Virus record (IMG/VR): IMGVR_UViG_3300032046_000010
Location: 1 to 64,000 of that record
Direction: 5' to 3' (one strand)
Length of the DNA: 64,000 nt
Source of the DNA: a virus
Both the position numbers and the translations under genes were made by a program. Positions 8,138 through 41,384 of the stretch are shown here, in pieces (the stretch's first letter is position 1; the number at the start of each line of letters is the position of its first letter). Under the pieces are notes generated by a model, which ran no database searches, was not told the origin of the DNA, and worked only from the letters and a program-made list of their open reading frames with translations.

Positions 8138-8164
8138 CTAGACAGTAAGCGAAAACCGGGCCGT
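8138..8164 (-). promoter_or_regulatory. Promoter-like element, copy A
   Basis: On the minus strand this contains the invariant core TTTTCGCTTACT (8155-8144), preceded by ACGGCCCGG and followed by GTCTAG. It sits in the gap before the gene starting at 8122 and is shared with six other gaps (copies B-G). Confidence 0.7.
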
Positions 8165-8165
8165 G

Positions 8166-8453
8166 CTACCAATCCACCGCGATTCCCAGCTGCTTGGCGA
8201 TGGACTTGACCTCGCCTCCGGTCACGCAATACGAACGGTTGTCATAGCTGAACTCGTGCGGTCCCGGCCGGTGCGCCCCGTTGACCCACAACCCCTCGGT
8301 CACGTTGTGGACCCAGTACTTGCCGAACGCCGTGTCCAGGGTCGCCTCGCCTCCGTCGCGCAGCCGCTCGTTGATCTGAGTCACCAACTCATCCCACTGC
8401 GCCCGCCGCTCCGCTACCGCCTTCCGTTCCGCCGTCCGTTCTTGCTTCGTCAT
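8166..8453 (-). CDS. Hypothetical protein
   Basis: 95 aa starting MTKQERTAERKAVAERR at an ATG with GGAGG five bases upstream. Charged N-terminal helix, then a beta-rich part. A much longer in-frame extension to 8882 is rejected because it crosses promoter copy B and two other genes. Confidence 0.8.
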   Translation of the reverse strand: MTKQERTAERKAVAERRAQWDELVTQINERLRDGGEATLDTAFGKYWVHNVTEGLWVNGAHRPGPHEFSYDNRSYCVTGGEVKSIAKQLGIAVDW

Positions 8454-8469
8454 CGTCGCCTCCTGGGGT

Positions 8470-8498
8470 CTAGCCAGTAAGCGAAAACCGGGCCGTTT
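8470..8498 (-). promoter_or_regulatory. Promoter-like element, copy B
   Basis: Minus-strand core TTTTCGCTTACT (8487-8476) preceded by AAACGGCCCGG and followed by GGCTAG. It lies between genes, 17 bases before the ATG at 8453. Confidence 0.7.
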
Positions 8499-8500
8499 GG

Positions 8501-8701
8501 TCAGCTGGGGGAGTAGAAGTTGACGACTGGAAGCTGGACCTCCACGATTACAAGGGCTGCCGCATCGTGGATGGTCTCTGCCAAGCAAGCCCGCGCCTGC
8601 TCCGCCTCCTGGATGGTGGTGAAGGGCACCGACAACCCCTGCCACCGCTCGATGTTGGATTCGCACTGCGTCGCCAGAAAATACACCATCATGTATCCCA
8701 T
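8501..8701 (-). CDS. Hypothetical small protein
   Basis: 66 aa starting MGYMMVYFLATQCESN at a TGATG junction. Pattern of a small alpha/beta protein. No family is recognised. Confidence 0.7.
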   Translation of the reverse strand: MGYMMVYFLATQCESNIERWQGLSVPFTTIQEAEQARACLAETIHDAAALVIVEVQLPVVNFYSPS

Positions 8702-8937
8702 CACGCCACCTCCGTTGCCGACCACTCGACCTCGACCAGCAGGACCTCGACCTTGTTGAAGTGCCGCATCCGGCCCAACACAGTCTGCTTGGCATCCAGC
8801 CCTTCCATGATGGTGAAGAACGGGCCTGCCGCCGCGTCCCAGACCTTGCGCCGCCCGGCTCCCTCGCCGCGCTCCGGCGCAAACCGGCTGACCACCAACC
8901 ATGCTCTCACGGTCAGGCGCTTCAGCTTCATGGCCAT
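8701..8937 (-). CDS. Hypothetical small protein
   Basis: 78 aa starting MAMKLKRLTVRAWLVVSRF at a TGATG junction with the MazG-like gene. It shares the style AGPFFTIMEGLDAKQTVLGR with its neighbour's VPFTTIQEAEQARACL, so the pair may be distant paralogues (weak). Confidence 0.7.
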   Translation of the reverse strand: MAMKLKRLTVRAWLVVSRFAPERGEGAGRRKVWDAAAGPFFTIMEGLDAKQTVLGRMRHFNKVEVLLVEVEWSATEVA

Positions 8938-9287
8938 CAGCCGCCCCTCCGCTTCCTGGGCTGCTTGTTGTGCGCCAGATACTGCTTCATGTTGAACCCG
9001 GCCGGGTAGATGCGGCGGGTCTTGATCAGGTTGTAGGCAGCGCACTCTTCCAAGCTCAGACCCAAAGCATCGGCCAGAGCGGCCGTGTACCACAGCACGT
9101 CACCCAGGACCTCCCGCATCAGGTCGGTGTCGCTCTTGTGGTTGTGGTCGCGGATGGACTTGGTGTGGTCCATCACCTTGACAGCCCGCACCACCAACCC
9201 CATCGCCAGCCCGGTCAACCCATCGAGCCAGTCAGCGTATGGCCGACATGTGCTGAGCGCCTCTTTCTGGAAGTCGTTGAGCTTCAT
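8937..9287 (-). CDS. MazG-like protein with degenerate catalytic motifs
   Basis: 116 aa. The overall pattern, including LMREVLGDVLWYTAALADALG and a terminal RRIYPAGFN, matches the MazG-like all-alpha NTP pyrophosphohydrolase family. The metal-binding pattern ExxE...ExxD is not intact: the region normally rich in Glu reads LTGLAMGLVVRAVKV, and the second half is E-V-L-G-D, with Glu one place off. It may be inactive or have another role. Confidence 0.75.
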   Translation of the reverse strand: MKLNDFQKEALSTCRPYADWLDGLTGLAMGLVVRAVKVMDHTKSIRDHNHKSDTDLMREVLGDVLWYTAALADALGLSLEECAAYNLIKTRRIYPAGFNMKQYLAHNKQPRKRRGG

Positions 9288-9511
9288 GACGCCTCCCCGG
9301 CATCGGCCTGCTTGCTACGGCCAAACGCTTGCCACTCGATGGTGATGGTGTTGGACTCCCCCTCGACCCTGCGCCGGTCCAACCACGCCTGCGTGATCGC
9401 CAACGCCTCGACCGAAGTGCGAGCCCACATGACTGATCCGTCCGGCCGCACGACCGTCAGGCCGTCCCGGCGGCACTTGACGGTGAACCGGCCGTGGTGG
9501 TTGTTCTTCAT
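9284..9511 (-). CDS. Hypothetical small protein
   Basis: 75 aa starting MKNNHHGRFTVKCRRDGLTV at an ATGA overlap. Beta-rich N-terminus, then a helix (TSVEALAITQAWLDRRR). No family is recognised. Confidence 0.7.
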   Translation of the reverse strand: MKNNHHGRFTVKCRRDGLTVVRPDGSVMWARTSVEALAITQAWLDRRRVEGESNTITIEWQAFGRSKQADAGEAS

Positions 9512-9753
9512 GGCTCCCACCTGTGCTCTTCCAGCAAAGCCGCCTGGAGGCTCTGCGACTCGCGCACGATGTCGGCGGTGTCCAACCATCCTGCGTTGTC
9601 CGTCCACAGTTCCCGGCCTTCCAGCCGGATGTTGGGCTCTCCCTCTTGCGTTTCCTGCGCCAGACCATCCGCGATGGACTGGACCACCGACAGCTGGAAG
9701 GTCAGTGCCTCATGAAGCTTGTTCAGCGCCTCCTGCGTCTTGGTTCCCATCAT
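9508..9753 (-). CDS. Hypothetical small helical protein
   Basis: 81 aa starting MMGTKTQEALNKLHEALTFQ. The ATG at 9753 overlaps the upstream stop (9750-9752). The in-frame extension to 9939 is low-complexity and antisense-like, so it is rejected. Confidence 0.7.
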   Translation of the reverse strand: MMGTKTQEALNKLHEALTFQLSVVQSIADGLAQETQEGEPNIRLEGRELWTDNAGWLDTADIVRESQSLQAALLEEHRWEP

Positions 9754-10052
9754 GCCACATCCTTCCCGGCTTCCATCGCCTCCATCGTCGCCCTCGCCCT
9801 CTTGTCGAGCCGCTTGCCAATGCGCTCGACCAGACTCGCATAGAGCGAACCCGGGACCAGCTTGTTCAGCTTGGCCTGGATCCTGTCGAAGTCCCGCGCC
9901 ACGTGGTTGAGCTGGTTGCCGGTCCAACGCTCCAGTCATCGCTCATCGGCCTGCGCCGTCCAGATGAGCTGGCTACAGAGTGCCGCATGAACGCGCGACA
10001 GTTTGCGGAGCGTTCCCATCATGTCAACCGCCTTGCTGATCTTGGGGTCCAT
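9750..10052 (-). pseudogene. Small helical gene split by an in-frame TGA
   Basis: An ATG at 10052, five bases after the upstream stop with GGAG upstream, opens 38 codons ending ...IWTAQADER, then TGA at 9936-9938. The same frame continues without another stop for 62 codons (LERWTGNQLNHVARDFDRI ... ending GKDVA) and ends in an ATGA overlap with the next gene. TGG to TGA (Trp) is one base. This looks like a nonsense mutation or sequence error in a 100-aa gene; readthrough in the leaky UGA-C context is possible. The second part has no good start of its own. Confidence 0.65.
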
Positions 10053-10056
10053 CTTC

Positions 10057-10596
10057 CTACTCCACCACGAAAGCGCCCTTGGGGCCGACTCCGATGGCCT
10101 TGGGGAAGTGCGACTTGAGCAGCTTCCAGAGCGCCGGTCGCTGGACGCCCGGGACGATGTTGACCTTGCGTTCCTTGTCCCACCAGCGGCCCTGGATAGA
10201 CCGGAAGGCCATCGCAGCCGTCGCCGTGTAGGGGGTCTTGACGTGGATCCATTCCCGGCCGCTCGCCGGGTCCTTCATGACTTCGATGCGGATCGCTGAC
10301 ATCCGGTCCAACACCCGGTCGGCCAACTTGTCGAGGCCCAGCGCCCTCAGCTGCTCCGCTGCCGCCACCACGTCCAGCCCGGTCTGACGCGCCGCGATGT
10401 AGTACACCAGCCGGTTGGCTTCCCGGCGCACATCGTCCGTGATGTTCGGGTTGTCCACGCCGTACTTCACCCGACAGTCTGGGCCGATGCCCAGTTCCAC
10501 GCTCTTGGCATCCACCAGCGCGTGACCACAGCAAGCGCAGTGTGATGCCAACATCTTCGTCGCGGGCGCATTCTCATAGCTGCTATCGCTCATCAT
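10057..10596 (-). CDS. DUF6011-like zinc protein with HARP-like C-terminus
   Basis: 179 aa. HCACCGHALVDAKSVELGIGPDC resembles the DUF6011 pattern (C-x2-C...GIGP.C), a small zinc-binding module. The C-terminal half (TPYTATAAMAFRSIQGRWWD, then KERKVNIVP) resembles the HARP/SNF2-associated beta module that binds DNA next to helicases. The role is unknown. ATG at 10596 with AGGAGG five bases upstream. Confidence 0.7.
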   Translation of the reverse strand: MMSDSSYENAPATKMLASHCACCGHALVDAKSVELGIGPDCRVKYGVDNPNITDDVRREANRLVYYIAARQTGLDVVAAAEQLRALGLDKLADRVLDRMSAIRIEVMKDPASGREWIHVKTPYTATAAMAFRSIQGRWWDKERKVNIVPGVQRPALWKLLKSHFPKAIGVGPKGAFVVE

Positions 10597-10607
10597 GTCC
10601 TCCTATC

Positions 10608-10829
10608 CTAGCGGGCCTGGTACACGCCGATGTACACCCACTCTCCGGCCGTCGCCGCCGGGTCAACGGAGCCTCGGATGGCCTGCTCACAAGCATCGAT
10701 GCTCTCCTGCGGGACGGAGTGATGTCGCATCGCCTTGAGTACCTTGCCCACCACCGTGTACACCGGGTCGCCCGGGTCCAGCTTCACAGTGATGCGGTTG
10801 AAGCGCGGCTCCATCGTCGTCATCGTCAT
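10608..10829 (-). CDS. Hypothetical small protein
   Basis: 73 aa from MTMTTMEPRFNRITVKLDPG; GGAGG eight bases upstream supports this ATG over the in-frame ATG at 10844. First gene behind promoter-like copy C. Its stop is part of a CCCGCTAG element. No family is recognised. Confidence 0.7.
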   Translation of the reverse strand: MTMTTMEPRFNRITVKLDPGDPVYTVVGKVLKAMRHHSVPQESIDACEQAIRGSVDPAATAGEWVYIGVYQAR

Positions 10830-10847
10830 CGTCGTCGCCTCCATGAC

Positions 10848-10876
10848 CTACCAGTAAGCGAAAATCAGGCCGTTTG
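10848..10876 (-). promoter_or_regulatory. Promoter-like element, copy C
   Basis: Minus-strand core TTTTCGCTTACT (10864-10853) preceded by AAACGGCCTGA and followed by GGTAGG. It lies in the gap before the gene starting at 10829. A weak imperfect hairpin (CAGG...CCTG) spans its upstream edge. Confidence 0.7.
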
Positions 10877-10878
10877 TC

Positions 10879-11199
10879 TCAAACCTGGTTCTCCAGCTCA
10901 ACTTCATGACGCAGCTTCGGGATCATGCGCTCCTTGAAGGTCGCCCAGACATCCTCGCTGACTGCTTCCCGCTCCGACTCGCCCAGAGCGTTCCAGTGGC
11001 CCCAACCCACGCTGGTCCAGAACGCCCGCAGCGCCGTCGCCTTGGTTTCCCGCGTGTCCAGGTCGCTCAGCAGGTCGGCCACCGTCGTGATGGAGCAAGC
11101 ATCCTCGCCATAGGACTCATCCATCCACTCGATGGTCTCATCGATCAGCGCCTTGGTCGCTCCCAGCTTCTCCAGGGTTGCCATCGTCTCAGCCTTCAT
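10879..11199 (-). CDS. Hypothetical protein
   Basis: 106 aa starting MKAETMATLEKLGATKALID at a TGATG junction (an alternative GTG lies one codon upstream). Acidic and helical. No family is recognised. Confidence 0.75.
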   Translation of the reverse strand: MKAETMATLEKLGATKALIDETIEWMDESYGEDACSITTVADLLSDLDTRETKATALRAFWTSVGWGHWNALGESEREAVSEDVWATFKERMIPKLRHEVELENQV

Positions 11200-11453
11200 C
11201 ACGCCCTCCCAACCATCCCCAGGTCGGTCGCCCGGCGCACGATCCTGGCGTCGTATTCCGCAGCCATCCGGTCGAAGCGCACGGCCCGCTCCATCGAGGC
11301 TTCCTTGATTCCCTGGAACCGGGTCTCAGCGCCGCACTCGCTCGCCCAACGCCGCTCGCCCTGCGCCGCCGACCGGAGTGAACGCGCCTCGTGAGCGTAG
11401 CTACGGATGATCCAGTCCTGCTTTGCCGCCGCCCGCATCTCCGTCTTGGTCAT
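11199..11453 (-). CDS. Hypothetical small helical protein
   Basis: 84 aa starting MTKTEMRAAAKQDWIIRSYA with GGAGG five bases upstream. First gene behind promoter-like copy D. Rich in Arg and Ala, likely helical. No family is recognised. Confidence 0.75.
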   Translation of the reverse strand: MTKTEMRAAAKQDWIIRSYAHEARSLRSAAQGERRWASECGAETRFQGIKEASMERAVRFDRMAAEYDARIVRRATDLGMVGRA

Positions 11454-11467
11454 CTTCGCCTCCATGG

Positions 11468-11500
11468 CTAGACAGTAAGCGAAAATCATACCGTTGTATG
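11468..11500 (-). promoter_or_regulatory. Promoter-like element, copy D
   Basis: Minus-strand core TTTTCGCTTACT (11485-11474) followed by GTCTAG. The upstream half differs from the other copies (CATACAACGGTATGA) and forms a 5-bp hairpin just before the T run. It lies 15 bases upstream of the ATG at 11453. Confidence 0.7.
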
Positions 11501-11540
11501 GATGCTGGAGAACAGCGATGGATATTATTGAACTTTGGTT

Positions 11541-11843
11541 TCAGCCGGTTGCTTTGTTGGTGGAACACAACTCGCAGAACCGCTCCCAAGCCTCCAACTT
11601 CCACTCATGTAGGATGCCCAGGATCGTTCCCCTCCGCTTGTACCGATGACGGCACCGCTCCGGCCCGTTGCTCTCATGCTCTGCCCGGAGCACGGCGTGG
11701 ACCTCCTGGAACGATGGCAGGCCTGCTCTGAAGTCCCGATAGCGGCACAGTTGCTCACAACCGTCGCAGCGAACGTGACGCCAGTAGTATGATCGCTCCA
11801 GCCCGCGCCGGAGCGCCGGATGGGCAGAGCGCCGGAGGCTCAT
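11541..11843 (-). CDS. Hypothetical Cys-rich protein
   Basis: 100 aa starting MSLRRSAHPALRRGLERSYY at an ATGA overlap. CDGCEQLCRYRDF and FCELC suggest zinc coordination. Arg-rich, so nucleic-acid binding is possible (inference). Confidence 0.75.
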   Translation of the reverse strand: MSLRRSAHPALRRGLERSYYWRHVRCDGCEQLCRYRDFRAGLPSFQEVHAVLRAEHESNGPERCRHRYKRRGTILGILHEWKLEAWERFCELCSTNKATG

Positions 11844-12103
11844 ACCAGCTTGACGGTCTTGATGATGCTCCAGGGGATGTGATCGGCTTCATCCAGATCC
11901 AGCTTCAGCGCGATGGGCGTGTCCCACTCCATGCCCAACACCTTCATCGTGCGCCAGATGATCTCCGTGAGGATGCCGGACCTGTAGTGGCCGTCGTCGG
12001 TCTCCACCTCGATGCGCCGACCGATGAGCGCACTCAGGTCGATGCACCACACCAGCTGATCCTCCACCTTCATCGAGCTGGAACCCTTGATCTCCTTGGA
12101 CAT
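11840..12103 (-). CDS. Hypothetical protein, possibly Sm-like beta barrel
   Basis: 87 aa; ATG at 12103 with GGAGG five bases upstream (a GTG one codon earlier is too close). LIGRRIEVETDDGHYRSGIL has the look of an Sm-like first strand pair, but the match is weak and no catalytic motif exists. Confidence 0.65.
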   Translation of the reverse strand: MSKEIKGSSSMKVEDQLVWCIDLSALIGRRIEVETDDGHYRSGILTEIIWRTMKVLGMEWDTPIALKLDLDEADHIPWSIIKTVKLV

Positions 12104-12105
12104 CA

Positions 12106-12690
12106 CTACCTCCGCGTGGACCGTCTCACGGTCCTTGTCGGCCGCTTGGCAGGCGGCTGGTTCCTGTTCGCGCTCCCGCTGGAACTTGCTTCATCCGCCG
12201 GAGCGGCCGGAGCCTCCGGCTTCGGCGGGTAGGCTTCCATCAACGACATCCTGGGACGGGTCCGGCCGGGAGCCGTCCCCAGCTTGGTGACCTTCACTTG
12301 GAACGCTGGTTGGCCACGCCGGTCCTGGGCTTCCCCGCTCAGGTCCAGCTTGGCCTCACCGCCGATGGCGATGTGCTGGCGATGGACGGAACGGGCCATC
12401 ATCAGGCAGCGTTTGAAGGCGATGTACGGTCCCTTCCTGATGCGTGTTGGGTCACGCTGCTTCGCCTTCACCATCGCCTTCACATCGGTGATCGGAACGG
12501 GCAGCTTTGGCAGCACGATGTTGTACAGCGCAATGTAGTCCACCGGTTGGGGAGGTGTGTAGGACGGCCGGACCATCTCCAACTGTGGCTCCGGCAGCGG
12601 CTCCGGCGGCACGTCCGGCTCCGCGTCCGGGGCCATTGCCTGACCCAACACGTCGTTCATCTCATAGAACCCAGCGTGGCTCCTATCCAT
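12106..12690 (-). CDS. Hypothetical protein with Pro/Asp-rich N-terminus and basic tail
   Basis: 194 aa from MDRSHAGFYEMNDVLGQAM with GGAGG six bases upstream. The N-terminal linker APDAEPDVPPEPLPEPQ shares PDAEPDVPP with the membrane protein at 47342-47809. A central globular part is followed by a basic, disordered tail (KRPTRTVRRSTRR) likely to bind nucleic acid. No family is recognised. Confidence 0.7.
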   Translation of the reverse strand: MDRSHAGFYEMNDVLGQAMAPDAEPDVPPEPLPEPQLEMVRPSYTPPQPVDYIALYNIVLPKLPVPITDVKAMVKAKQRDPTRIRKGPYIAFKRCLMMARSVHRQHIAIGGEAKLDLSGEAQDRRGQPAFQVKVTKLGTAPGRTRPRMSLMEAYPPKPEAPAAPADEASSSGSANRNQPPAKRPTRTVRRSTRR

Positions 12691-13099
12691 GTGGCACCTC
12701 CTGACTTGCCGCCTCCCGCAGAGACTGGCCCAGCTCCAGGTGGTGTTTCCAGTGTTGTTCCAGTCGGCTCTTGATGGTCCGGCTGACGCCATCCTTGATG
12801 CTGGCACAGTGCTCCCGTACCATCTGGAACCCCTCGCGCACGCCGTTCTCACGGATGAGCACCAACCGTTCCTGCGTCCAGCCTGCCATGATCATGATGG
12901 CTTCCGCGAACCCCAACGCCGTTGCTAGAGCATGGTACACGGTCGTGATGCGTGAGATGACTTCCGTGTTCCGGTCAGCAACTCCTACCAACCGCTTGAG
13001 ATCCAGACGGCTGGTGATGAGTTTGATGAGGTCCCGCTCGATGGCCGCACGATCCTGGTGGAGCCTGGTTGCCTGATCAGCTGTCATCTTGAGTGTCAT
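12683..13099 (-). CDS. Hypothetical helical protein
   Basis: 138 aa; GGAG six bases upstream supports the ATG at 13099. Almost entirely helical with a hydrophobic stretch (TALGFAEAIMIMAGW). It overlaps the upstream gene by 23 bases. No family is recognised. Confidence 0.7.
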   Translation of the reverse strand: MTLKMTADQATRLHQDRAAIERDLIKLITSRLDLKRLVGVADRNTEVISRITTVYHALATALGFAEAIMIMAGWTQERLVLIRENGVREGFQMVREHCASIKDGVSRTIKSRLEQHWKHHLELGQSLREAASQEVPHG

Positions 13100-13454
13100 C
13101 GTTCGCTCCATCCTGTTGCGTCACCTTGATGGCGGGCGCGTGTTCGACCTCCGCCCCACTCGTGGTCAGGTTGAGGTAGCGTGCCACACGGTACAGCCGG
13201 ACGCTCTGCCTGTCGTCGGCCAAGTGAAGCAGTCGGTCGCCGGGTAGCTCCCGCCTCCGTGTTACCACGTTGCCCCAGCCAATGAACTCGACCACCGCCA
13301 GCGCCTCCCGCTTCCCAACGACTCGCCCGGGCCAGCTGTACCACCACTTCCCTTCGTACTCAGGATGCTCAGTCATCACGAACATCCCGACATCGATGGC
13401 CTGTCCGTCCGCAAAACGGCACGGTGACTCAGGCCTGGGTTTGCGGAGCGGCAT
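13077..13454 (-). CDS. Hypothetical protein
   Basis: 125 aa starting MPLRKPRPESPCRFADGQ. Trp-rich central segment (GKWWYSWPGRVVGKREALAV) and an acidic tail. A short gap carrying the CCCGCTAG element separates it from the upstream methyltransferase. No family is recognised. Confidence 0.75.
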   Translation of the reverse strand: MPLRKPRPESPCRFADGQAIDVGMFVMTEHPEYEGKWWYSWPGRVVGKREALAVVEFIGWGNVVTRRRELPGDRLLHLADDRQSVRLYRVARYLNLTTSGAEVEHAPAIKVTQQDGANDDTQDDS

Positions 13455-13464
13455 CGGTCCTATT

Positions 13465-14049
13465 CTAGCGGGTCGGTTGTGGTAAGTCCCTGAGTCTCGT
13501 TATCGAATCGCGCACATCCTCGCCGTTCAACTCCAATCCTACACATGTCCATCGAGGGTATTGCTGTCTTGCGAACATCTCCAGCTTCGGCCCGTCGAAC
13601 ATCCTATCCAGCCGCTTGTGGAATGCGTGAGTCTTGCGTGAGTGGGGCTTCAATGACCGGCCAACGAAGATGTTGCGCTGGTTGCGGACCTTGAGGAACC
13701 GCTTTGGGTTGCCTCTGACACCAACCAACGCCAGTTCGCCGCTGTAACGGAAGATGCGACCCATCCCGAAGTGTAGCAGGCCGTTCTTGGTAGTCTTGAC
13801 CCAGCCAGCCCATTGGACACACTTGAAGCCCCACGCCTTCATCACTGACAGTGCATCCTCCACGAACGGACCACCAACCCAAAGAAACAGCACAGCATCG
13901 TCGGCTGCGACACACGACACGCCGCATGACATGATGTCAGCGAGCGTCAGAGTGCTGTATTGGCTGTCGGCCCCACGCTTGACACTGGACATGGCCAGTT
14001 TGTCGTCGTACAGCCACGGAGGGTCGGCGCTGATGACGCGGAACTTCAT
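13465..14049 (-). CDS. MT-A70 family adenine N6-methyltransferase
   Basis: 194 aa starting MKFRVISADPPWLYDDK. DPPW near residue 9 is the catalytic motif of the MT-A70 group of N6-adenine DNA/RNA methyltransferases, followed by typical segments AVLFLWVGGPFVEDALSVMK and KTHAFHKRLDRMFDGPKLEM. It is an orphan enzyme without a restriction partner. It probably methylates phage DNA as protection or regulation. ATGA overlap with the upstream gene. Confidence 0.88.
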   Translation of the reverse strand: MKFRVISADPPWLYDDKLAMSSVKRGADSQYSTLTLADIMSCGVSCVAADDAVLFLWVGGPFVEDALSVMKAWGFKCVQWAGWVKTTKNGLLHFGMGRIFRYSGELALVGVRGNPKRFLKVRNQRNIFVGRSLKPHSRKTHAFHKRLDRMFDGPKLEMFARQQYPRWTCVGLELNGEDVRDSITRLRDLPQPTR

Positions 14050-14543
14050 TTGGCAGTCTTGGCCTTGGTGTTCGCGGCCGGAACCCGCAACCGCAGTTTG
14101 GAGTCCCAAAACGCTGCGGCAGCCTTGGCTCCGATGTACTTGTGAAGGTCCCGCTTGTGAACCAACGTCGGCTTCGCAGGGAAGGGAAGCAACCCCAGCT
14201 TGGCCCTGGCCACCATTGCTTGAGTCGCCTGTTCCCCCTCCGTCGTCGCCGGGATGAGCACCATCACTTCCTCACCATAGTCCTTGATGACCTGGACGAC
14301 AGGGTCGCCTTTGTCGGAGTGGTACACCACCGACATCCCCATCGGTAGCTCGCTGGGAAGCGCCTGCGTGAAGGTGAACATCCGCTTCCCATCGATGAGC
14401 CTGTTGCCCATCAGCACCACGAAGTCCTTGGGGTGTTTCACCCTCATGCCTTGATTGGTTCCCAGTTCCTTCAGAGGATGGCGCCGCTTCTGTCCCTCGC
14501 CATGACCCAGCTCCGATGCGCGCTTCACCAGGTTCCGTCCCAT
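14046..14543 (-). CDS. Hypothetical protein
   Basis: 165 aa starting MGRNLVKRASELGHGEGQKR. Basic ends around a beta-rich core. The start lies almost directly at the UDG stop. No family is recognised. Confidence 0.75.
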   Translation of the reverse strand: MGRNLVKRASELGHGEGQKRRHPLKELGTNQGMRVKHPKDFVVLMGNRLIDGKRMFTFTQALPSELPMGMSVVYHSDKGDPVVQVIKDYGEEVMVLIPATTEGEQATQAMVARAKLGLLPFPAKPTLVHKRDLHKYIGAKAAAAFWDSKLRLRVPAANTKAKTAK

Positions 14544-14544
14544 C

Positions 14545-15111: not shown

Positions 15112-15382
15112 CGCCGTGTCTCCTGGTGAGACCGTCCAGGAACGGGAGGTCATCACGGTCGTCAATCTCAGCAAACGAACGGGTGGACGGCATCGTGAAC
15201 AGACCTGATCCCTTGACGGACGCGATGGGTTGGGACTCCTGCGACTTGATGGCGTGATGCATCTTCATGTTCTCTTTGCGCAGCTCCAAGAACAGCCGCT
15301 CCAGGCCAGCGTACTCACGCCGCCAGAAGCAGTCAAAGCATACGCGTGGCGGCTTCGCCGTCTGTTTGGTACGCTGTACCAC
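15104..15382 (-). CDS. Hypothetical protein with CxxC
   Basis: 92 aa, basic N-terminus (RTKQTAKPPRVCFDCFWRRE), then a helical segment and an acidic region (AEIDDRDDLPFLDGL). Only one CxxC pair is seen. No family is recognised. Confidence 0.7.
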   Translation of the reverse strand: MVQRTKQTAKPPRVCFDCFWRREYAGLERLFLELRKENMKMHHAIKSQESQPIASVKGSGLFTMPSTRSFAEIDDRDDLPFLDGLTRRHGDD

Positions 15383-15400
15383 GCTCCCCTCCCATCGCTC

Positions 15401-20542: not shown

Positions 20543-20546
20543 CTGT

Positions 20547-22599: not shown

Positions 22600-22628
22600 C
22601 GGTCGGAGCCTCCCTGCGCGGTGGACTG

Positions 22629-31145: not shown

Positions 31146-31149
31146 GACA

Positions 31150-34050: not shown

Positions 34051-35159
34051 GGCGGGGCCTCCAACGGTGGCGGCTGGTTGCGTGGCGGGGGCATCTCCAG
34101 GATGCCTTCACGCATCATCCGCCCGATCAGCTTGGCAGCCGCTCGGGCAAGGTCGGGAGTCCGCACGCCTCGCCAAGCAACCGGCATCGCCGGGTCCGTC
34201 AACTGCTTCAGCTTGGCTCCCGGTAGCGCCAAAGCCTTGTCCCAAGTGGTGCTGAACGCGATGTCCAACCGCTTGGCCAGAGGCTTCAGCTTGATCACGC
34301 AGACCTTGGCATAATGGCCGCTCGTGGCGATGTACACAGTGATGTAGTTTGACTTGTCAGTCACACGGTTGACGAACACGTCGCCCGGGAGCGCCCCGCT
34401 GCGCTTGGCCTTCCAATCGTACCCCAACCTGAACAGAGACAACTGGAGCCGCTTCAGGAAAGCATCGACCAGCGGTTCAAGGTCGCTGAACCGCCCTGGA
34501 TCGGTCGGCCGCTTCCGCTTCTCACGCTTCACCAACTTGGCCACCAGCGTGCCCTTGGCCTTCCCGGTCGCCTTCGGAACCACGATGGCAGGTGGCGTGA
34601 TCTTGTTGATGTACTTCCGCTCGATGTCGGCCAGTTCCACGTTGAGCGCATGAGGGTCCGTCCGCTCATCCATGAACCGCTCCGCCGTCAAGGAGTGTTC
34701 CATCAGGTACAGCTTCAGCGAGTAGCAGCGCGCACGCCAAGTACAAGCCGACTCGACATGCCCAGACGCCTTGTTGTAGCCTCCGTCGCAGGTCGAACAG
34801 TGGTCATGGTAGCCCAGGCACTCAGGTACGGTCACCGTCATCCGCGCCTCCTGCTGCGGGAAGCCTACGTCATCAATCCACGGGATGGGAATCGAATCTT
34901 CAATGCCGTCATTGCCCCTTACCCTGAACTCATCCCAGCACACCTGGCCGACCATCACCAACGTTGAAGCCCACCCGGCATCCCCGTCGCTCACGAACGC
35001 CACTTGGCCCCAACAGTAGCGTTCTGTGTTGATCGTCCGCTTCCCATCCTTCCATGAGGCCCATCCGCCGGGCATCGGCTTCGGGCCTAGACTGTGACGC
35101 CGGATGATGCGGGACACGAACCTGAAGTCCAGAGGCTTGATGGACTCGTGGATTGCCAT
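34047..35159 (-). CDS. Unknown Cys-rich protein in the enzyme island
   Basis: 370 aa starting MAIHESIKPLDFRFVSRIIR with GGGAGG upstream. A dense Cys/His segment (CLGYHDHCSTCDGGYNKASG, then Cys at SACTWRARC) suggests a metal site. The C-terminal half has basic linkers and a beta-rich part (NYITVYIATSGHYAKVCVIK). I do not recognise it. Co-directional and overlapping with the FAD gene, it probably works in the same pathway (inference). Confidence 0.75.
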   Translation of the reverse strand: MAIHESIKPLDFRFVSRIIRRHSLGPKPMPGGWASWKDGKRTINTERYCWGQVAFVSDGDAGWASTLVMVGQVCWDEFRVRGNDGIEDSIPIPWIDDVGFPQQEARMTVTVPECLGYHDHCSTCDGGYNKASGHVESACTWRARCYSLKLYLMEHSLTAERFMDERTDPHALNVELADIERKYINKITPPAIVVPKATGKAKGTLVAKLVKREKRKRPTDPGRFSDLEPLVDAFLKRLQLSLFRLGYDWKAKRSGALPGDVFVNRVTDKSNYITVYIATSGHYAKVCVIKLKPLAKRLDIAFSTTWDKALALPGAKLKQLTDPAMPVAWRGVRTPDLARAAAKLIGRMMREGILEMPPPRNQPPPLEAPP

Positions 35160-35160
35160 C

Positions 35161-35805
35161 TCAAGCCTCCCGCAAAACCTGACGAGCACGTGCCAGAGCG
35201 GACTTGACCCTGGCGGCCGGGATGCCCAGATGTTCCGCCAACATGTTCTCGGTGATGATCGGCTTCCCGGGTCGAACGTTGCGAGCCATGATCTCCAGTT
35301 CAGGTGGAGGACACAACCGTGCAGACAACACCAGCCGGTCCACCTCATCCAACCGCTGGATGATGCGCTCGGTGACCCAGGCCTGCTGCTCATGTTCCTG
35401 GGTAGCTTCCAAACAGGCTGGGTCCGTCACGTCAGCATCGTTTTCCGCTGTGGAGCCGAACCCGGCCAAGCGCTGGTGCTTGGGAGACACACCATCGCCT
35501 TCATCGATGCGTGGTGCTCGTTTCAGCGCCAGTTCGTAGTTGACGATGGCCAACAGCGCGTTGCGCACAACCAGGTCAACCCAAGTGCGGAGTGCCCGGC
35601 CGCGCTCCGGCTTGTGCGTGGCCACGGCATAGATGGCGGCGATGCGAGCCTCTTGAAGCAGTTCAAAATGGTTCAAACCTGGGATGCGCTTGAACGGACG
35701 CGCCTTGGCATGGATCACGTCCTCCAGTTGAGGCAACAGCTTCGCCAGCGTCGGCTTCAACTCGTCAGGGCATGTCCAGCCTGTAGGAACGATATGCGGT
35801 GCCAC
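35161..35805 (-). CDS. Sigma-70-like RNA polymerase sigma factor
   Basis: 214 aa; GTG at 35805 with AGGAGG five bases upstream. FELLQEARIAAIYAVATHKP and RALRTWVDLVVRNALLAIVN match sigma region 2, and the C-terminal ENMLAEHLGIPAARVKSALA is a region-4 helix-turn-helix. Region 1 and 3 features are absent, as in phage late sigma factors. It may direct host RNA polymerase to phage promoters, perhaps the seven repeated elements (inference). Confidence 0.78.
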   Translation of the reverse strand: MAPHIVPTGWTCPDELKPTLAKLLPQLEDVIHAKARPFKRIPGLNHFELLQEARIAAIYAVATHKPERGRALRTWVDLVVRNALLAIVNYELALKRAPRIDEGDGVSPKHQRLAGFGSTAENDADVTDPACLEATQEHEQQAWVTERIIQRLDEVDRLVLSARLCPPPELEIMARNVRPGKPIITENMLAEHLGIPAARVKSALARARQVLREA

Positions 35806-35886
35806 CCATCCCTCCTGTCCCCATCCCAACGCCCGCCTGCTCCCTCTGAAGCAACCGGGCGCTGAGTCGGAACGGGAAGCCGGTGG

Positions 35887-37110
35887 CTACCAGTCCTTGA
35901 CGCCCAGCTTGAGCATCCCCATGGTGATCCACTTGGTCACCAGGGCGCGCAGGCGCGGTTCGATGGCCTCGACCACCTTGACGCGGATGGCTTCCTTGTT
36001 GCCCTGGACCTCCACCAGCGGCTTCTTGCCGCCGACCGGCTCCAGCTTGACGCTGGCTCCGGCCTTGATGGGCCGGACGGTGAGCAGGTGCGGCTTGCCG
36101 CCCATGTTCATCGTCGTGGTGTAGACGTTGCCCTTCACCACGCCGCCCTTCTCCGGCTTCGGCTCCGTGCTGCGGGGCCGTCCCGGGCCGCGCTTGGCGG
36201 GCTGCGCCGCCGGGGCGGGGGTTGCCGCCTTGGCCGCCGGGGTCGGCTTCGCGGCCGGGGTCGGCTTGGCCGCCGCCGGGGCGGGGGTCGGCTTCGCCGG
36301 GGTCGGCTTCGCCGGGGTCGGCTTCGCCGGGGTCGGCTTCGCCGCCACCTTGCTCTTGGTGTCCTGCTTGCCCTTCGTTCCCATGTTGTCCTCCTGGCCG
36401 TCATCGGCCGTGGTTGCGCCGTCGGCATCGCTGCCTTCGGCATCCTCCCCGTTCCCGTCGCCGTCGCCGGCATCATCGTCGGCATCGGCATCGGCATCGT
36501 CGTCGGCATCGTCGGGGTCGGGGTCCGGGTCCGGCTCCACGACCTTGGCCGGAGGCTTGCCGGTGCCCTTGGCCTTGGCCTTGGGCTGCTCCGGCTCCGG
36601 CTCGCCCGCGCCCGCGTCCGGCTCCGCCGTCGTGGCCTCCGGTTCCGCATCCGGCTCCGTGGCCTCCGGCTCCGTGGCCTCCGGCTCCGCCGTCGTGGTC
36701 GTCGCCTTGGCACCCTTCTTCACGATGATCTTCTTGCCCATGACGCCTTCCTCCTGTTGACGGGGTCCACCCGCCAGCTTCGTGGTCACCGGGATGTCCA
36801 ACGCCTCCCGTGTGAACCGTTTGCCCACTTCGTGGAACCGGAAGATGAACAACCCGTCCATCCCCAGACCCACGCGCTTGATGATCTCCATCAGCTGGTC
36901 GTCGGTCGGCTCCGACTCCCGGCTGTCCAACACCACCACCGACTCCCGCTGCGTCTTGCTGTAGTAGCCCGCCGCGCAGAAGCTCCCTTCCAGCAACCCA
37001 GTGGTCTTGCCGTTCTGGAACACGCCAGTCACCAGCGACACCAACCACACGTCCGGTGCGACGGGCTCAACCACCAGTTCCTTGCCGACATTGGGTTCGT
37101 ATCCGATCAT
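35887..37110 (-). CDS. Low-complexity acidic/basic protein with AT-hook and nested starts
   Basis: 407 aa. Residues 1-120 are globular; 135-235 are Glu/Asp/Ala/Thr-rich; about 250-320 are KPTPA repeats (a 15-bp DNA unit, four tandem copies); KRGPGRPRS is an AT-hook; the last 85 aa are globular. Two internal ATGs in the same frame have better Shine-Dalgarno sequences than the first (AGGAGG before 36741 and 36384), so shorter isoforms of 284 and 165 aa may be made. DNA binding through the AT-hook is likely. Confidence 0.75.
   Translation of the reverse strand: MIGYEPNVGKELVVEPVAPDVWLVSLVTGVFQNGKTTGLLEGSFCAAGYYSKTQRESVVVLDSRESEPTDDQLMEIIKRVGLGMDGLFIFRFHEVGKRFTREALDIPVTTKLAGGPRQQEEGVMGKKIIVKKGAKATTTTAEPEATEPEATEPDAEPEATTAEPDAGAGEPEPEQPKAKAKGTGKPPAKVVEPDPDPDPDDADDDADADADDDAGDGDGNGEDAEGSDADGATTADDGQEDNMGTKGKQDTKSKVAAKPTPAKPTPAKPTPAKPTPAPAAAKPTPAAKPTPAAKAATPAPAAQPAKRGPGRPRSTEPKPEKGGVVKGNVYTTTMNMGGKPHLLTVRPIKAGASVKLEPVGGKKPLVEVQGNKEAIRVKVVEAIEPRLRALVTKWITMGMLKLGVKDW
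36384..36396 (-). promoter_or_regulatory. Internal ribosome binding site and start in the AT-hook gene
   Basis: AGGAGG sits five bases upstream of an in-frame ATG at 36384 (MGTKGKQDTKSKVAAK). Initiation here would yield a 165-aa, strongly basic AT-hook protein free of the acidic region. Confidence 0.5.
36741..36757 (-). promoter_or_regulatory. Internal ribosome binding site and start in the AT-hook gene
   Basis: AGGAGG precedes an in-frame ATG at 36741 (MGKKIIVKKG) by about eight bases. It would give a 284-aa isoform without the N-terminal globular domain. Confidence 0.4.
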
Positions 37111-37148
37111 CCCGCACCGCCTAATCTAGTGACCCACCTTGGCTTCCA

Positions 37149-37787
37149 CTAGTACACCTTGTTGATCGCCATCCGCTGGAGCCAGTCGATCAGCTGTGGA
37201 GCGCCGTCGCCGCGCTTCGGGTCCGACATGAACTGGACCGTCTTGGATGCCCACGGCTTCAACTGGCAGATCATGAACTTGCGGTTCCAGACCCGGCACA
37301 CCAGCGTAGCTCCGCCCTGCCGACCGTTGGGCGACCCAAGCTTGATCTCGCCCTTGCTGTAGATGCCGCCCTTGCTGTCGGTGAACGACTCCATCGGGCC
37401 GTCCCACGGGCACGGACCACGGTGACCGGCGAGGGCATCCACGCCGCTCTTGACCGCCATCAGCACGTTGGACTGCTTGGCGATGCGGTCCCGCTTCTCA
37501 GGGGTCAAGGTCGCCGGATCAACACGCCGCTGAGCCTCGCTGGGCGGAGTGGCCTTGCCGTCCGTCGTCGTCGGGACATCGACCGGCTTGGCCTGCTGCT
37601 TGGCAGGCACCACCGGCTGCGGCTTCGGCTGTTCCACCCTGGACTCCGGCTTGGAGGTCGGGGTCTGGGACTCTGCGATGGCATCCTCACGGGCCTCCCG
37701 GGCACGCAGCTCAGCCTCAGCATCCGGCTCCGGCTGGAGTGCGACTCCAACTGTGAACCGCTTTCTCAAGTCATCCAACGTCGGCAT
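37149..37787 (-). CDS. MPTL-tagged hypothetical protein
   Basis: 212 aa starting MPTLDDLRKRFTVG, behind promoter-like copy E and GGAGG. A long charged linker (AEAELRAREAREDAIAES and more) leads to a C-terminal globular domain with TLVCRVWNRKFMICQLKPWA. The N-terminal peptide is shared with genes at 5369 and 28607. No family is recognised. Confidence 0.75.
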   Translation of the reverse strand: MPTLDDLRKRFTVGVALQPEPDAEAELRAREAREDAIAESQTPTSKPESRVEQPKPQPVVPAKQQAKPVDVPTTTDGKATPPSEAQRRVDPATLTPEKRDRIAKQSNVLMAVKSGVDALAGHRGPCPWDGPMESFTDSKGGIYSKGEIKLGSPNGRQGGATLVCRVWNRKFMICQLKPWASKTVQFMSDPKRGDGAPQLIDWLQRMAINKVY

Positions 37788-37802
37788 CGTATCCTCCTGC
37801 CC

Positions 37803-37830
37803 CTACCCAGTAAGCGAAAACCAGGCCGTT
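37803..37830 (-). promoter_or_regulatory. Promoter-like element, copy E
   Basis: Minus-strand core TTTTCGCTTACT (37820-37809) preceded by AACGGCCTGG and followed by GGGTAGG. It lies 16 bases upstream of the ATG at 37787. Confidence 0.7.
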
Positions 37831-37842
37831 CATCGCCCGCCC

Positions 37843-40041
37843 CTACTGCGCCACCCGACGCACCCGGCCGTTCATCAGCTTCGCCGCCACGGCCTTGAAC
37901 AGCGCCTTGGGGAGCGCCGCCAGATCCCAAACAACCTCCGCATTGCGATAGAAGCTCGTCACCGCATCGCTCTGGATTCCGATTCCCACGACCTCGATGC
38001 CGCGCTTTTCAGTCGCCCGCACCACGTCCTTCAGGTGCCGCCCCTCGATGCTACGCTCACGCTCATTGCGCCGGGTGTAGTTGCCGCTCACGTTGGCGCG
38101 CTTGGGGTCGTAGGTTCCGCCGGTCACGGTCGAAGTCCCGGCCGCAGGTTGACCATCCGACAGGACGATCAGCACCTTCCGCTCCTGGGGCTGCTGCGCC
38201 AGCAGGTCAGCGACCATCTGGAGCGCATCGCCGTCAGCGTTGTTCGCCCGGCCGTTGATCTTCACCAGGCGGGAGCGCACACGCCGGAACTGCTCGCTGA
38301 AGCTCTTGTACTGGTACAGGTGGATCGACTCATTGCGGCCGTTCCACCAGCTTCCAGCGTCCAGCGTGTCGTCATCAGTCGTCACCATCCCGCTGGTGAA
38401 CCCGTAGATTGCGAAGGGCACGTTGAGGGCCGTCAGCGTCTCACCCAGGGCAACCGCCGCCAGCTGGGCCGTCGCCGCCTTGACTCCGCCCATCGAGCCG
38501 GACTCATCAACCAGCACCGCAACCGCCGGGACCTCATCCAGCGTCGTGATCTTGCGGGAGAACACGCGCCGCTCGCCGGTCACCGCCCGGTACAGAGCCG
38601 CGCTGTCCAGCTTCCCTTCCTCCTGGTCGGGGTCGTTCTGGACGTCAGCCTTGCCCTTGAGGACCATCATCAACTTGGAGCGGAGGCCGCCAACGACTCC
38701 CGCGACCATCTGCTTCAGCTGGGCGTAGTGCGCATCGCTGCTCAACTCTTGGACGATGATCTTGTCAGCCGCCTTGGCGCTTGGCCGGGCCACGTAGCGG
38801 CCATCGCTCTGCGCCGCGCTGGAGGCGTCCTTGCTCAGCTGGTCGCGCACCGCGTCCATCATGTCCTTCGCAGCGTCATCGAACAGGTCATCAACCGGCT
38901 TGGAGTCGGTCGGGTCATCATTGATCTTGGTGTTGTCGCTGGCGCCCACGTTGCCGCCCGCCTCGCCGGTCTCAGCCTCGCCACCCTCCTGGTCACCCTG
39001 ATCCTCGCCAGTCCCTTCCTGCTCGCCCTTCCCGGCCGACCCTTCCTGGTTGCCTTCCTCGCCGTCCTCACCCTCAACAGCGCCGTCGTCGCCTTCCTCG
39101 CCCTCGTCACCGCCGTCCTCATCCTCGCCCTCGCCCGCACCACCCTCACCGTCGTCGCCCTCGTCGCCCTCGTCGCCCTCGTCATCCGACTCGCCCTTGG
39201 ACTCGCCCTTGGTGTCCTGCTCGCCGTCCTCAGCACCGTCGTCGCCCGCACCGTCGTCGCCCTCGTCAGCCTCGCCCTCATCACCCTCATCGGCCTTGCC
39301 CTGCTCGCCCTTGCTCTGGGGCTTGGACTCGGGCTTGGACTCGGGCTTGGACTCGGGCTTGGACTCGCCCTGCTCGCCGTCCTGCGACTCCGGCTGGGTC
39401 GGCTGGGTCATCGCGTCCCGCAGCGTCTGCTCAACCAGGTGCATCATCGACTCAACCTTGTCGTACCCAGCGCCGCGAAGCTCCGCCATCCTGGGGAGCA
39501 GCTTGGCAACCGCGCCTTCCAGCCGGGGGTCCAAGGTCACGGCCGACTCACCGAACGACCGGAGATACAGTTCAGAACCGAACCCGTGAAGCCCACTGGT
39601 GTAACCCGGGGTCGCCGCGTTGCGCTTGATCAGCTTGACGCCGTAGCGCCGGAGCGCCGACAGGTTCCGCTCAACGCCCTCAAACGGGTTGCCCATCTCA
39701 TCGTGGATGTCGGCCACGATGTTCAGGATGCTGTGGCGGGTCTTGGAGACCTTCATCGCCTCGGTGATCAGCTCACTCGGCAGCTTCACGGTGGCGCCAG
39801 CCGCCCGCGCCGCAACCGCCGCTTGCTCTTCACGAGCGTGGCAAGTCTCATGGTCCAGCATCCCCTCGACCACCGCCACAACGTCCTCACCCATCTCATC
39901 GACGTTCTCAGGCAGCTGGATCAGCTTCTGGTCGAACAGGAACCGACAGGCGGTCCCGGCCTGGACTACCTTCAACCCGGTGTCGGCGCTGAAGGTCCTG
40001 GCCACCTTCCCCATCGTTCCTTCCTGCGTCCGGTTCTTCAT
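37843..40041 (-). CDS. CobT-like von Willebrand factor A protein
   Basis: 732 aa starting MKNRTQEGTMGKVARTFSAD. N-terminal domain with a metal-protease-like DHETCHAREE, a long acidic Glu/Asp/Gly/Ser linker (about 240-400; includes 12-bp SKPE repeats), then a VWA domain whose MIDAS reads VLVDESGSMGG with later VLIVLSDGQP. The order matches CobT of cobaltochelatase. CobT partners a CobS-type AAA+ ATPase, which is the next gene upstream. GGAGG five bases before ATG; promoter copy F immediately upstream. Confidence 0.88.
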   Translation of the reverse strand: MKNRTQEGTMGKVARTFSADTGLKVVQAGTACRFLFDQKLIQLPENVDEMGEDVVAVVEGMLDHETCHAREEQAAVAARAAGATVKLPSELITEAMKVSKTRHSILNIVADIHDEMGNPFEGVERNLSALRRYGVKLIKRNAATPGYTSGLHGFGSELYLRSFGESAVTLDPRLEGAVAKLLPRMAELRGAGYDKVESMMHLVEQTLRDAMTQPTQPESQDGEQGESKPESKPESKPESKPQSKGEQGKADEGDEGEADEGDDGAGDDGAEDGEQDTKGESKGESDDEGDEGDEGDDGEGGAGEGEDEDGGDEGEEGDDGAVEGEDGEEGNQEGSAGKGEQEGTGEDQGDQEGGEAETGEAGGNVGASDNTKINDDPTDSKPVDDLFDDAAKDMMDAVRDQLSKDASSAAQSDGRYVARPSAKAADKIIVQELSSDAHYAQLKQMVAGVVGGLRSKLMMVLKGKADVQNDPDQEEGKLDSAALYRAVTGERRVFSRKITTLDEVPAVAVLVDESGSMGGVKAATAQLAAVALGETLTALNVPFAIYGFTSGMVTTDDDTLDAGSWWNGRNESIHLYQYKSFSEQFRRVRSRLVKINGRANNADGDALQMVADLLAQQPQERKVLIVLSDGQPAAGTSTVTGGTYDPKRANVSGNYTRRNERERSIEGRHLKDVVRATEKRGIEVVGIGIQSDAVTSFYRNAEVVWDLAALPKALFKAVAAKLMNGRVRRVAQ

Positions 40042-40057
40042 CTTCGCCTCCACGCTC

Positions 40058-40086
40058 CTACCAGTAAGCGAAAACCGGGCCGTTTG
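40058..40086 (-). promoter_or_regulatory. Promoter-like element, copy F
   Basis: Minus-strand core TTTTCGCTTACT (40074-40063) preceded by AAACGGCCCGG and followed by GGTAGGAG. It lies 17 bases upstream of the CobT-like start at 40041. Confidence 0.7.
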
Positions 40087-40096
40087 TGAACGGCCC
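40077..40096 (-). terminator. Rho-independent terminator-like hairpin
   Basis: On the minus strand GGGCCGTT-CACA-AACGGCCC forms a perfect 8-bp stem, followed by GG then TTTT, 13 bases after the CobS-like stop. Its 3' arm is also the upstream half of promoter copy F, so termination and initiation elements overlap. Confidence 0.55.
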
Positions 40097-40108
40097 TGGT
40101 TCCCAGTC

Positions 40109-41314
40109 CTAGTAGAACACGCGGTCAACGATGGCCTTCACGTAGGCGCGGTCATCCTTGCCCAGCCGGTTCAGGATGGCGACCGCAGCCGCCTTCCGCG
40201 CGTTGCCCCACTTCACGGTCAGCTTGGCCCAGGTGAGCAGCCGCCGGGTGCTCATCGTACAGAAGCACTCTTCACGGATCAGGCCGTCGCGGACCTTGCG
40301 AGCGATGTCCACCATCTTGCCAGCCACGTCCTTGGTGACGCCGGTCTTGGTCACGAGCACGCTGATCTCCTGGGGTCCCTGGAGATAGGAGACTTCCATC
40401 ACCACGCCGAACCGATCCAGAGTGGCCTCGTTCAGCACGTTGGTCCCGGTGTACATCCCGCTATCGTCGCCGCGCCCCAGGGTGTTCGCCGTAGCGATGA
40501 TGCGGAAGTTGGAGTGGACCTTCACGACCTCGCCGTTGTTCTCTGCCAGGACCAGCGGGTGACCGGGCTCAAGCACCGACTGAAGCCGCATCATGATCCG
40601 CGCGGGAGCCGCGTCCAGCTCATCGATGATCAGCCAGAAGCCCTTGCGCGCGCACTCCGTCAGGATGCCATCCTTCCAAAGCACGACCGTCGCACCAGAT
40701 TCCGACTCCGCCAGCACCTTCTCACCCACGAAGTCCGCCACCCTGAACTCGCCGTTCATGTTGACGCGCTTGGTGGGCTGGTTCATCAGGGACGCCAGCT
40801 CAAACGCCAGGCTGGTCTTGCCACAGCCCGCCGGGCCGACCATCAGCACGTTGGTGTCCATCTCAACGCCAACCGCCATCTGCTCCAGGGTCTCATCATC
40901 GAAGTCGAACATTTCATCGTGCTTCGGAACGTACAGTGCGTCATCCTCGCACACGTCGTCACGGACCTTCAAGACCGCCTTGCCGATGGAGAGGCAACCG
41001 GGCGGGAGCGCCGGAGCGGCCGGGGTCGGCTTCGCGGCCGGGGCAACCGGGGCGGGAGCGGCCGGGGCGGGGGTCGGCGTGGACGACGGAACGGTCCAGC
41101 CGGTGCCGCGCGCACCCTTGGTGTGGCCCTTGCTCAGCTGACGCCGTCCGTAGGTGCTGATCGTCTTGGAACCGGGGTACTGGCGGCGGTATTCCATCGT
41201 GCTCATCCCGTGGGCCGACTTGAGGTGGACGGCCAGCGTGTGGTAGTACTGCCCACAACGTTCGCACTTCACCATCGCGTTTCCGTCGCGGTCGGCCGGG
41301 TTGAAGTTTGCCAT
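40109..41314 (-). CDS. CobS/MoxR-like AAA+ ATPase with N-terminal C2H2 finger
   Basis: 401 aa starting MANFNPADRDGNAMVKCERC. C17, C20, H30 and H35 form a MucR-like C2H2 zinc finger. An Ala/Pro/Thr linker (KPTPAAPALPP) follows, then AAA+ with Walker A LMVGPAGCGKTS, Walker B FWLIIDELDAA, sensor 1 RIIATANTLGRGDD and Arg finger region NEATLDRFG. It is the ATPase partner of the downstream CobT-like VWA protein. In cobaltochelatase the pair inserts cobalt; in phages the substrate is unknown. Confidence 0.88.
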   Translation of the reverse strand: MANFNPADRDGNAMVKCERCGQYYHTLAVHLKSAHGMSTMEYRRQYPGSKTISTYGRRQLSKGHTKGARGTGWTVPSSTPTPAPAAPAPVAPAAKPTPAAPALPPGCLSIGKAVLKVRDDVCEDDALYVPKHDEMFDFDDETLEQMAVGVEMDTNVLMVGPAGCGKTSLAFELASLMNQPTKRVNMNGEFRVADFVGEKVLAESESGATVVLWKDGILTECARKGFWLIIDELDAAPARIMMRLQSVLEPGHPLVLAENNGEVVKVHSNFRIIATANTLGRGDDSGMYTGTNVLNEATLDRFGVVMEVSYLQGPQEISVLVTKTGVTKDVAGKMVDIARKVRDGLIREECFCTMSTRRLLTWAKLTVKWGNARKAAAVAILNRLGKDDRAYVKAIVDRVFY

Positions 41315-41355
41315 GTTCCTCATCCTCCATCGGCGCGTCCCTCGCGCCTCTCACC

Positions 41356-41384
41356 CGACCAAGTAAGCGAAAACCGGGCCGACC
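41356..41384 (-). promoter_or_regulatory. Promoter-like element, copy G
   Basis: Minus-strand core TTTTCGCTTACT (41373-41362) preceded by TCGGCCCGG and followed by TGGTCGGG instead of the usual TAG. It lies about 42 bases upstream of the CobS-like start, further away than the other copies. Confidence 0.65.

Follow-up and report, generated by a model that had tools for sequence, protein, structure and literature searches.

A highly conserved 23-bp intergenic block in a contractile-tailed phage, most likely a promoter class of one phage lineage

The first 64,000 nucleotides of the IMG/VR virus record IMGVR_UViG_3300032046_000010 (the window in what follows) contain a short sequence that recurs between genes, always pointing in the direction of the genes, and the question raised by this locus is what that sequence does. 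Its 12-base core, TTTTCGCTTACT, has seven exact copies in the window, all on the minus strand, which is the gene strand, at positions 8144, 8476, 10853, 11474, 37809, 40063 and 41362 (copies A to G). An earlier note, made from the letters alone, had read it as a phage-specific promoter class that is not a standard −35/−10 pair, and had brought it together with a sigma-like factor encoded by the phage. The answer reached here is that it is a real, highly conserved block and most likely a promoter class of one phage lineage, a variant of a known general kind, whose sequence is unusually fixed, and not a kind of its own.

The seven copies are isolated from background. With two or fewer mismatches permitted, the window search returned the same seven core sites only, where 100 shuffles gave 1.06 sites on average and at most 4. 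Over the whole record of 93,062 bp the core occurs seven times in reverse and never forward, and a reversed control sequence was not found at all. The earlier note's statement that the core is identical in all seven copies stands, except that the conserved unit is 23 bp rather than 12: column counts over the seven copies delimit a block, ACGGCCYGRTTTTCGCTTACTGK, with sharp edges and little conservation outside it or upstream, followed in every copy by an invariant G four bases beyond the block. A matrix of the 23-bp block, scanned over the whole record, scores 35–40 bits at the seven copies and 7.7 bits at the next best site; in six Markov shuffles of the window, used as the control, peaks were 5.4–10.3 bits with one of 20.3. 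The GC-rich upstream half is common, but the form ACGGCCYGR, thought to be in six copies, is found in five of the seven, with D reading ACGGTATGA and G reading TCGGCCCGG. The TAG said usually to follow the core by two to four bases is present at 2–3 nt in six copies and absent from G.

Placement is equally regular. By a simple gene caller of our own, all seven copies lie in non-coding DNA between genes; the window has 16 intergenic gaps of at least 40 nt, seven of which contain exactly one copy each, and the chance of this placement by zone and strand is about 1e-11, a rough figure that treats the copies as independent. From the end of the core to the start codon there are 21, 22, 23, 20, 21, 21 and 47 nt (A to G), so the earlier claim of a shared orientation with the genes was correct while its range of 15–45 bases becomes 20–23 nt in six copies and 47 nt at G. 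The starts of the genes after D and F were set by hand (the caller had 11489 and 40053), and a listed open reading frame (ORF) of 159 amino acids (aa) at 41351–41830, which would overlap copy G, was not accepted by the caller. Copies A to F are each followed, 3′ of the core, by a GGAGG site and an ATG start. Whole-record scans place no copy in front of any structural gene.

Homologous copies occur in related phages. A DnaE alignment scan of the viral collection, of which the best 80 of 579 matching stretches were considered, gave four nearly full-length matches at 37–50% identity that were followed further (G001 50%, G002 48%, G003 43%, G004 37%). Structural and replication genes are common to this phage, G001, G003 and G004; G002 is a 25-kb piece with replication genes. 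A diverged block, CGGYMYGRTTYTCGCWTA, is found in two of these phages. G001 has five copies of CGGCCTGATTCTCGCATA directly before genes, each ending a repeated stretch of ~190 bp, and in G002 CGGTATGGTTTTCGCATA occurs twice: one copy is upstream of cobT, like copy F here, and ~60 nt from the likely cobT start, and the other ends 32 nt before an ATG with GGAGG. The matrix used in these scans was built from the window copies alone and applied to 40 of the 102.5 kb of G001 and 20 of the 25 kb of G002. In G001 five sites score 20.4 bits, with the next at 9.8 and the highest shuffle at 16.7; in G002 one site scores 21.6 bits, with the next at 13.1 and the best shuffle close behind at 20.6 (0/25 shuffles reached the observed score in either case). 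No site rose above background in G003 or G004. Among 78 records drawn from a head-gene alignment (its 80 loci minus L274, which lies in G001, and L328), G026 has the element within one mismatch, with two 18-base sites identical to those of G001, and the other 77 records, many of them fragments, have none within one mismatch. This phage, G001 and G002 differ in base composition, at about 62, 55 and 48% GC.

The ~190-bp stretches of G001 were also considered as RNA. One copy folds well (z −3.6), but covariation lends no support to the consensus fold of the five sequences: its covariation term is unfavourable, and only 4 of 60 pairs are changed on both sides. Several hairpins are possible upstream of the element, and by eye copy c keeps a hairpin with a different sequence.

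The strongest argument that the element is a promoter is that relatives put dispersed promoters where this phage has it. G016 is related to this phage through DnaE (48% identity), CobS (41%) and CobT (34%), and it has a terminator followed by TTGACT-17-TACAAT upstream of cobS and a terminator followed by TTGACT-17-TAGACT upstream of cobT. Three 20-kb pieces of it (60 of 107 kb) contain six further copies of the type TTGACT-17-TATAAT, giving terminator–promoter modules in eight places, and one additional TTGACTTC match without a good −10. In one 20-kb piece of G003 there are ten copies of TTGCGTTGAAGCG, each followed by a TANNNT-like hexamer and mostly a few nucleotides before a possible start codon; these sites may give leaderless transcripts.

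The copies themselves, with their −35-like and −10-like hexamers, are as follows.

8142..8164, minus strand: copy A, 23-bp block; core 8144–8155; −10-like CTTACT 8144–8149; −35-like TTGGTA 8167–8172, spacer 17, overlapping the stop codon of the preceding gene
8474..8496, minus strand: copy B, 23-bp block; core 8476–8487; −10-like hexamer 8476–8481; −35-like CTGACC 8499–8504, spacer 17, overlapping a stop codon
10851..10873, minus strand: copy C, 23-bp block; core 10853–10864; −10-like hexamer 10853–10858; −35-like TTGAGA 10877–10882, spacer 18, overlapping a stop codon
11472..11494, minus strand: copy D, 23-bp block of the ACGGTATGA variant; core 11474–11485; best −35-like hexamer 3/6
37807..37829, minus strand: copy E, 23-bp block; core 37809–37820; best −35-like hexamer 2/6; heads 37149–37787, 35887–37110 and the sigma-like gene
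40061..40083, minus strand: copy F, 23-bp block, 5′ of the CobT-like gene; core 40063–40074; −35-like TTCACA 40085–40090, spacer 16
41360..41382, minus strand: copy G, 23-bp block, 5′ of the CobS-like gene; core 41362–41373; weak −35-like TTGCTG 41384–41389, 3/6, spacer 16

In a free −35/−10 search of the 90 nt before the seven starts, CTTACT, which lies inside the core, was the best −10 in five of seven. Matches to TTGACA at spacers of 16–18 nt from CTTACT sum to 26 of 42 (A 4, B 4, C 5, D 3, E 2, F 5 and G 3 of 6), a sum reached by 0/5000 flank shuffles and 0/5000 random genome placements; with spacers of 16–19 the observed sum is reached in 4/5000 shuffles. When one G001 site and two G002 sites were added, the counts were 2/5000 (16–18) and 0/5000 (16–19). 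The excess is confined to spacers of ~14–19. The G002 copies have TTGTCA and TTGACC at spacer 19, and G001 has TTCATC and TTCACC at spacer 18. The earlier statement that the element is not a standard −35/−10 pair is contradicted for the copies as a group by this excess, D and E being without the hexamer and G weak, and is probably wrong.

The explanation that we favour, and hold to be probable, is that the element supplies the spacer and the −10 for a class of phage promoters from which non-structural operons are transcribed, sigma-70-family in build but with a nearly invariant spacer. The promoter would consist of a degenerate TTGACA-like −35, a spacer of 16–18 nt (19 in one relative) and CTTACT as the −10, and we infer that it is used by the host polymerase. 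Transcription would start ~6 nt past CTTACT, near the TAG, as the positions of the TAG and of the ribosome site suggest, and a start at the invariant G would give six copies a leader of ~15–18 nt containing the GGAGG ribosome site. The TAG itself was tried as the −10 and dropped, by the reasoning that the start would then cut into the ribosome site. The spacer CGGCCYGRTTTTCG is nearly invariant here and recognizable in two other phages; it would most likely be bound by a phage or host regulator, or make an extended sigma contact, and its recognition may switch the element-bearing operons together. A tentative and rather doubtful extension is that a specific factor encoded by the phage, either the sigma-like protein or some activator, recognizes the nearly invariant spacer CGGYMYGRTTYTCG, which would make a phage-specific promoter code common to three related phages in slots where a relative has host-type promoters. 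The earlier proposal of a phage promoter class is supported by the position of the copies, by their homologues in two relatives and by the promoter slots of G016, though not in its tie to the sigma-like protein. The lineage offers a testable case of promoter turnover, with near-consensus host-type promoters at cobS and cobT in one phage and a fixed-spacer class in others; should the fixed spacer prove to be a recognition site, a phage could by this means distinguish its operons from host promoters while encoding no polymerase of its own.

Several observations weigh against this explanation. CTTACT is a poor −10, agreeing with TATAAT in three of six bases (the relatives have CATAAG and CATAGR), copies D and E have no −35-like hexamer, and that of G is weak. 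Since the hexamers of A, B and C overlap the preceding stop codons, their −35 likeness may be created in part by TGA or TAG, and the −35 p-value is partly post hoc because the −10 column was picked after the free search. No copy was matched as a sigma-70 site in a general promoter scan, which requires A at the second −10 position, a base that CTTACT lacks there. The fixed spacer is itself odd, as ordinary sigma-70 promoters do not fix theirs, and the drop from 35 to 7.7 bits is not what a degenerate set of promoters would show. In G001, moreover, the start codon comes 14–17 nt after the CGC in four of the five copies, without a clear ribosome site, so that the leader there would be almost nil.

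Could the phage's own sigma-like protein instead recognize the block as its full site, acting with the host core polymerase and with its own operon among the targets? The protein concerned is encoded here:

35161..35805, minus strand: sigma-70-like protein, matching regions 2 and 4 at scores under the Pfam cut-offs; for region 2, two orthologues score just above the cut-off

The gene is probably real, and orthologues are also found in G001 and G002; the predicted fold is uninformative (mean pLDDT 41). Besides the likeness to sigma-70 regions 2 and 4, gene order favours the idea, the sigma-like gene being downstream of a copy in the three phages that have both: here it is the third gene after E, in G002 it directly follows cobT, and in G001 it is the fourth ORF past copy a. 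Orthologues are, however, also found in G003 (7e-18), which lacks the element by the matrix, and in 9 of 20 further relatives (1.9e-37 to a weak 2.8e-5), none of which has the element within one mismatch; these nine include G016, with its near-consensus promoters at the same genes. G026 has the element and no sigma match, in a 56-kb part record. Phage sigma factors usually act before structural genes, where this phage has no copy. Because orthologues are also present in phages without the element, G016 among them, the sigma-like gene is not tied to the element and the link drawn in the earlier note is unproven. The failure of the two to co-occur is not decisive, since specificity could have co-evolved, and we regard direct recognition of the whole block by this protein as unlikely. 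A −24/−12 promoter for host RpoN has the attraction that the spacing GG-N10-GC is present in all seven copies and both relatives, that TTTCGCTT occurs in the E. coli glnAp2 promoter (verified upstream of E. coli glnA), and that a start ~11 nt after GC would coincide with the invariant G. The sigma-54 likeness exceeds chance (6/3000 column shuffles; 180/20000 with a consensus sequence). Scored against 29 published Salmonella sites with leave-one-out (from the available part of PMC3844500), the window variants nevertheless reach 4.4–7.0 bits and the relatives 4.1 and 5.2, far below the known-site minimum of 14.1; the TGG and TGC of sigma-54 sites are CGG and CGC in every copy. No sigma-54 domain was found in any of five phage records, and in this phage an activator domain is matched only at the CobS-like ATPase. 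A standard sigma-54 promoter is not supported, and the sigma-54 reading seems very improbable.

A contiguous, nearly invariant 23-bp block without degenerate copies is also what recommends a promoter for a single-subunit RNA polymerase of the T7 type. PF00940 gave no match in this phage, whose record is probably complete, or in four relatives (one a 25-kb fragment), while the T7 control matched at 9.9e-110; variable TAG spacing and the −35 excess do not fit such a promoter either, and this reading, largely refuted, is scarcely credible. There remains action that is not that of a promoter: an operator that a phage regulator would bind and that merely overlaps the promoter, or, at the RNA level, a start-associated element like the SAS of cluster K mycobacteriophages. 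The block has a single orientation and precedes non-structural genes only, as the available part of PMC3203893 reports for SAS. The sequence of the block has no dyad symmetry, and no hairpin is common to all copies. Nor is an intrinsic terminator (a GC hairpin and T run) found in every copy, terminator-like calls overlapping E, F and G and none of A to D (one, at 40077–40096, overlaps the upstream half of F); the totals of such calls were below the shuffle mean in both regions scanned. The ribosome site lies outside the block, unlike that of SAS, and the G002 block is ~60 nt from the likely cobT start. A ribosome site apart from the block, and a distance to the start that differs from phage to phage, make RNA-level action less likely, and operator and RNA-level readings taken together appear improbable to us.

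Some known systems resemble the promoter class proposed here in part. SAS is a 13-bp sequence, GGGATAGGAGCCC, typically 3–7 bp from the start and including the ribosome site in the available part of the source (PMC3203893); the block differs in sequence, and its core ends 20–23 nt away in six copies. Closer are the ESAS promoters of the cluster K mycobacteriophage Adephagia, described in the accessible portion of PMC11373665 as seven intergenic copies of a conserved 46–47-bp sequence with putative −35 and −10 hexamers 17–18 bp apart. Seven intergenic copies and conservation that extends past the hexamers are shared with the block; as that portion describes them, ESAS include imperfect inverted repeats and are linked, at the start codon, with SAS, whereas the block is an asymmetric 23-bp spacer plus −10 with neither feature. 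The modules of G016 occupy the same slots (cobS, cobT) in several dispersed, near-identical copies, but they have TTGACT-17-TATAAT-type hexamers and an upstream terminator, where the window copies combine a fixed spacer with a poor −10 and with a −35 that varies or is missing. Sigma-54 promoters such as E. coli glnAp2 share GG-N10-GC and TTTCGCTT with the block, which has CGG/CGC in place of TGG/TGC and scores far below the 29 known sites. In the archaeal virus HF2 (a halovirus), families of intergenic repeats of 58 and 29 bp with AT-rich motifs were tested as promoters, according to the available part of PMC8707807; intergenic repeats of one virus carrying promoters are the likeness, and repeat length, AT-rich motifs and the domain of the host are the differences. 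The core sequence appeared in no paper text covered by our literature search, most papers in subscription journals being outside its reach.

The phage itself is a contractile-tailed one, given its genes for tail sheath, baseplate wedge, tape measure, portal and terminase. The two ends of the record (window 1–126 and the record end) share 126 identical bases, on which its probable completeness rests; this could be a terminal repeat or the assembly overlap of a circular map. Nearly all genes called are on the minus strand. Further genes encode a DnaE-type polymerase, a UvsX/RecA protein, an SbcC/SbcD fusion, a primase, DnaB and another helicase. The genes preceded by copies are four small genes and one of 212 aa without family, and the CobT-like and CobS-like genes.

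7709..8122, minus strand: gene after copy A, 137 aa, no family found
8166..8453, minus strand: gene after copy B, 95 aa, no family found
10608..10829, minus strand: gene after copy C, 73 aa, no family found
11199..11453, minus strand: gene after copy D, 84 aa, no family found; start set by hand
37149..37787, minus strand: gene after copy E, 212 aa, no family found
37843..40041, minus strand: gene after copy F, CobT-like von Willebrand A protein, 732 aa; start set by hand
40109..41314, minus strand: gene after copy G, CobS-like AAA ATPase, 401 aa

An N-terminal stretch of the CobS-like ATPase resembles Ros/MucR zinc-finger regulators, slightly under the Pfam cut-off. A similar set, of CobT, CobS, a sigma-70 region 2 gene, DnaE and RecA, is also found together in Stenotrophomonas phage ANB28 and Rhizobium phage RHEph10, in both of which the sigma gene adjoins cobS. 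A search of 100 of the 108 kb of ANB28 for 12-mers repeated four times in gene direction gave nothing but one palindrome. RHEph10 has a near-palindromic repeat around TCAATATTTACTGA, dispersed in both orientations, which looks like a repressor operator set and is a different thing from the element.

Scans of the viral collection with single CobT-like and SbcCD-like proteins found no relatives; a CobT alignment scan gave 26 distant loci at 21–33% identity; and no phage record matched the tail sheath protein or the sigma-like protein. The core extended by three bases was scanned for twice, the CGATTTT variant not being included; of the 80 loci obtained, none had both the ACGG and the TAG context.

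Two further groups of repeats were seen in the window. Tandem 30-bp repeats of the TAGGATA type occupy positions 511–775, within a left-end stretch of ~2 kb in which the gene caller finds one ORF only, of 48 codons. A 33-bp repeat with three copies (73–100% alike) lies at 41580–41612, 41682–41714 and 41896–41928, in the 791 nt that separate the primase gene from the CobS-like gene, and may mark an origin or regulatory region.

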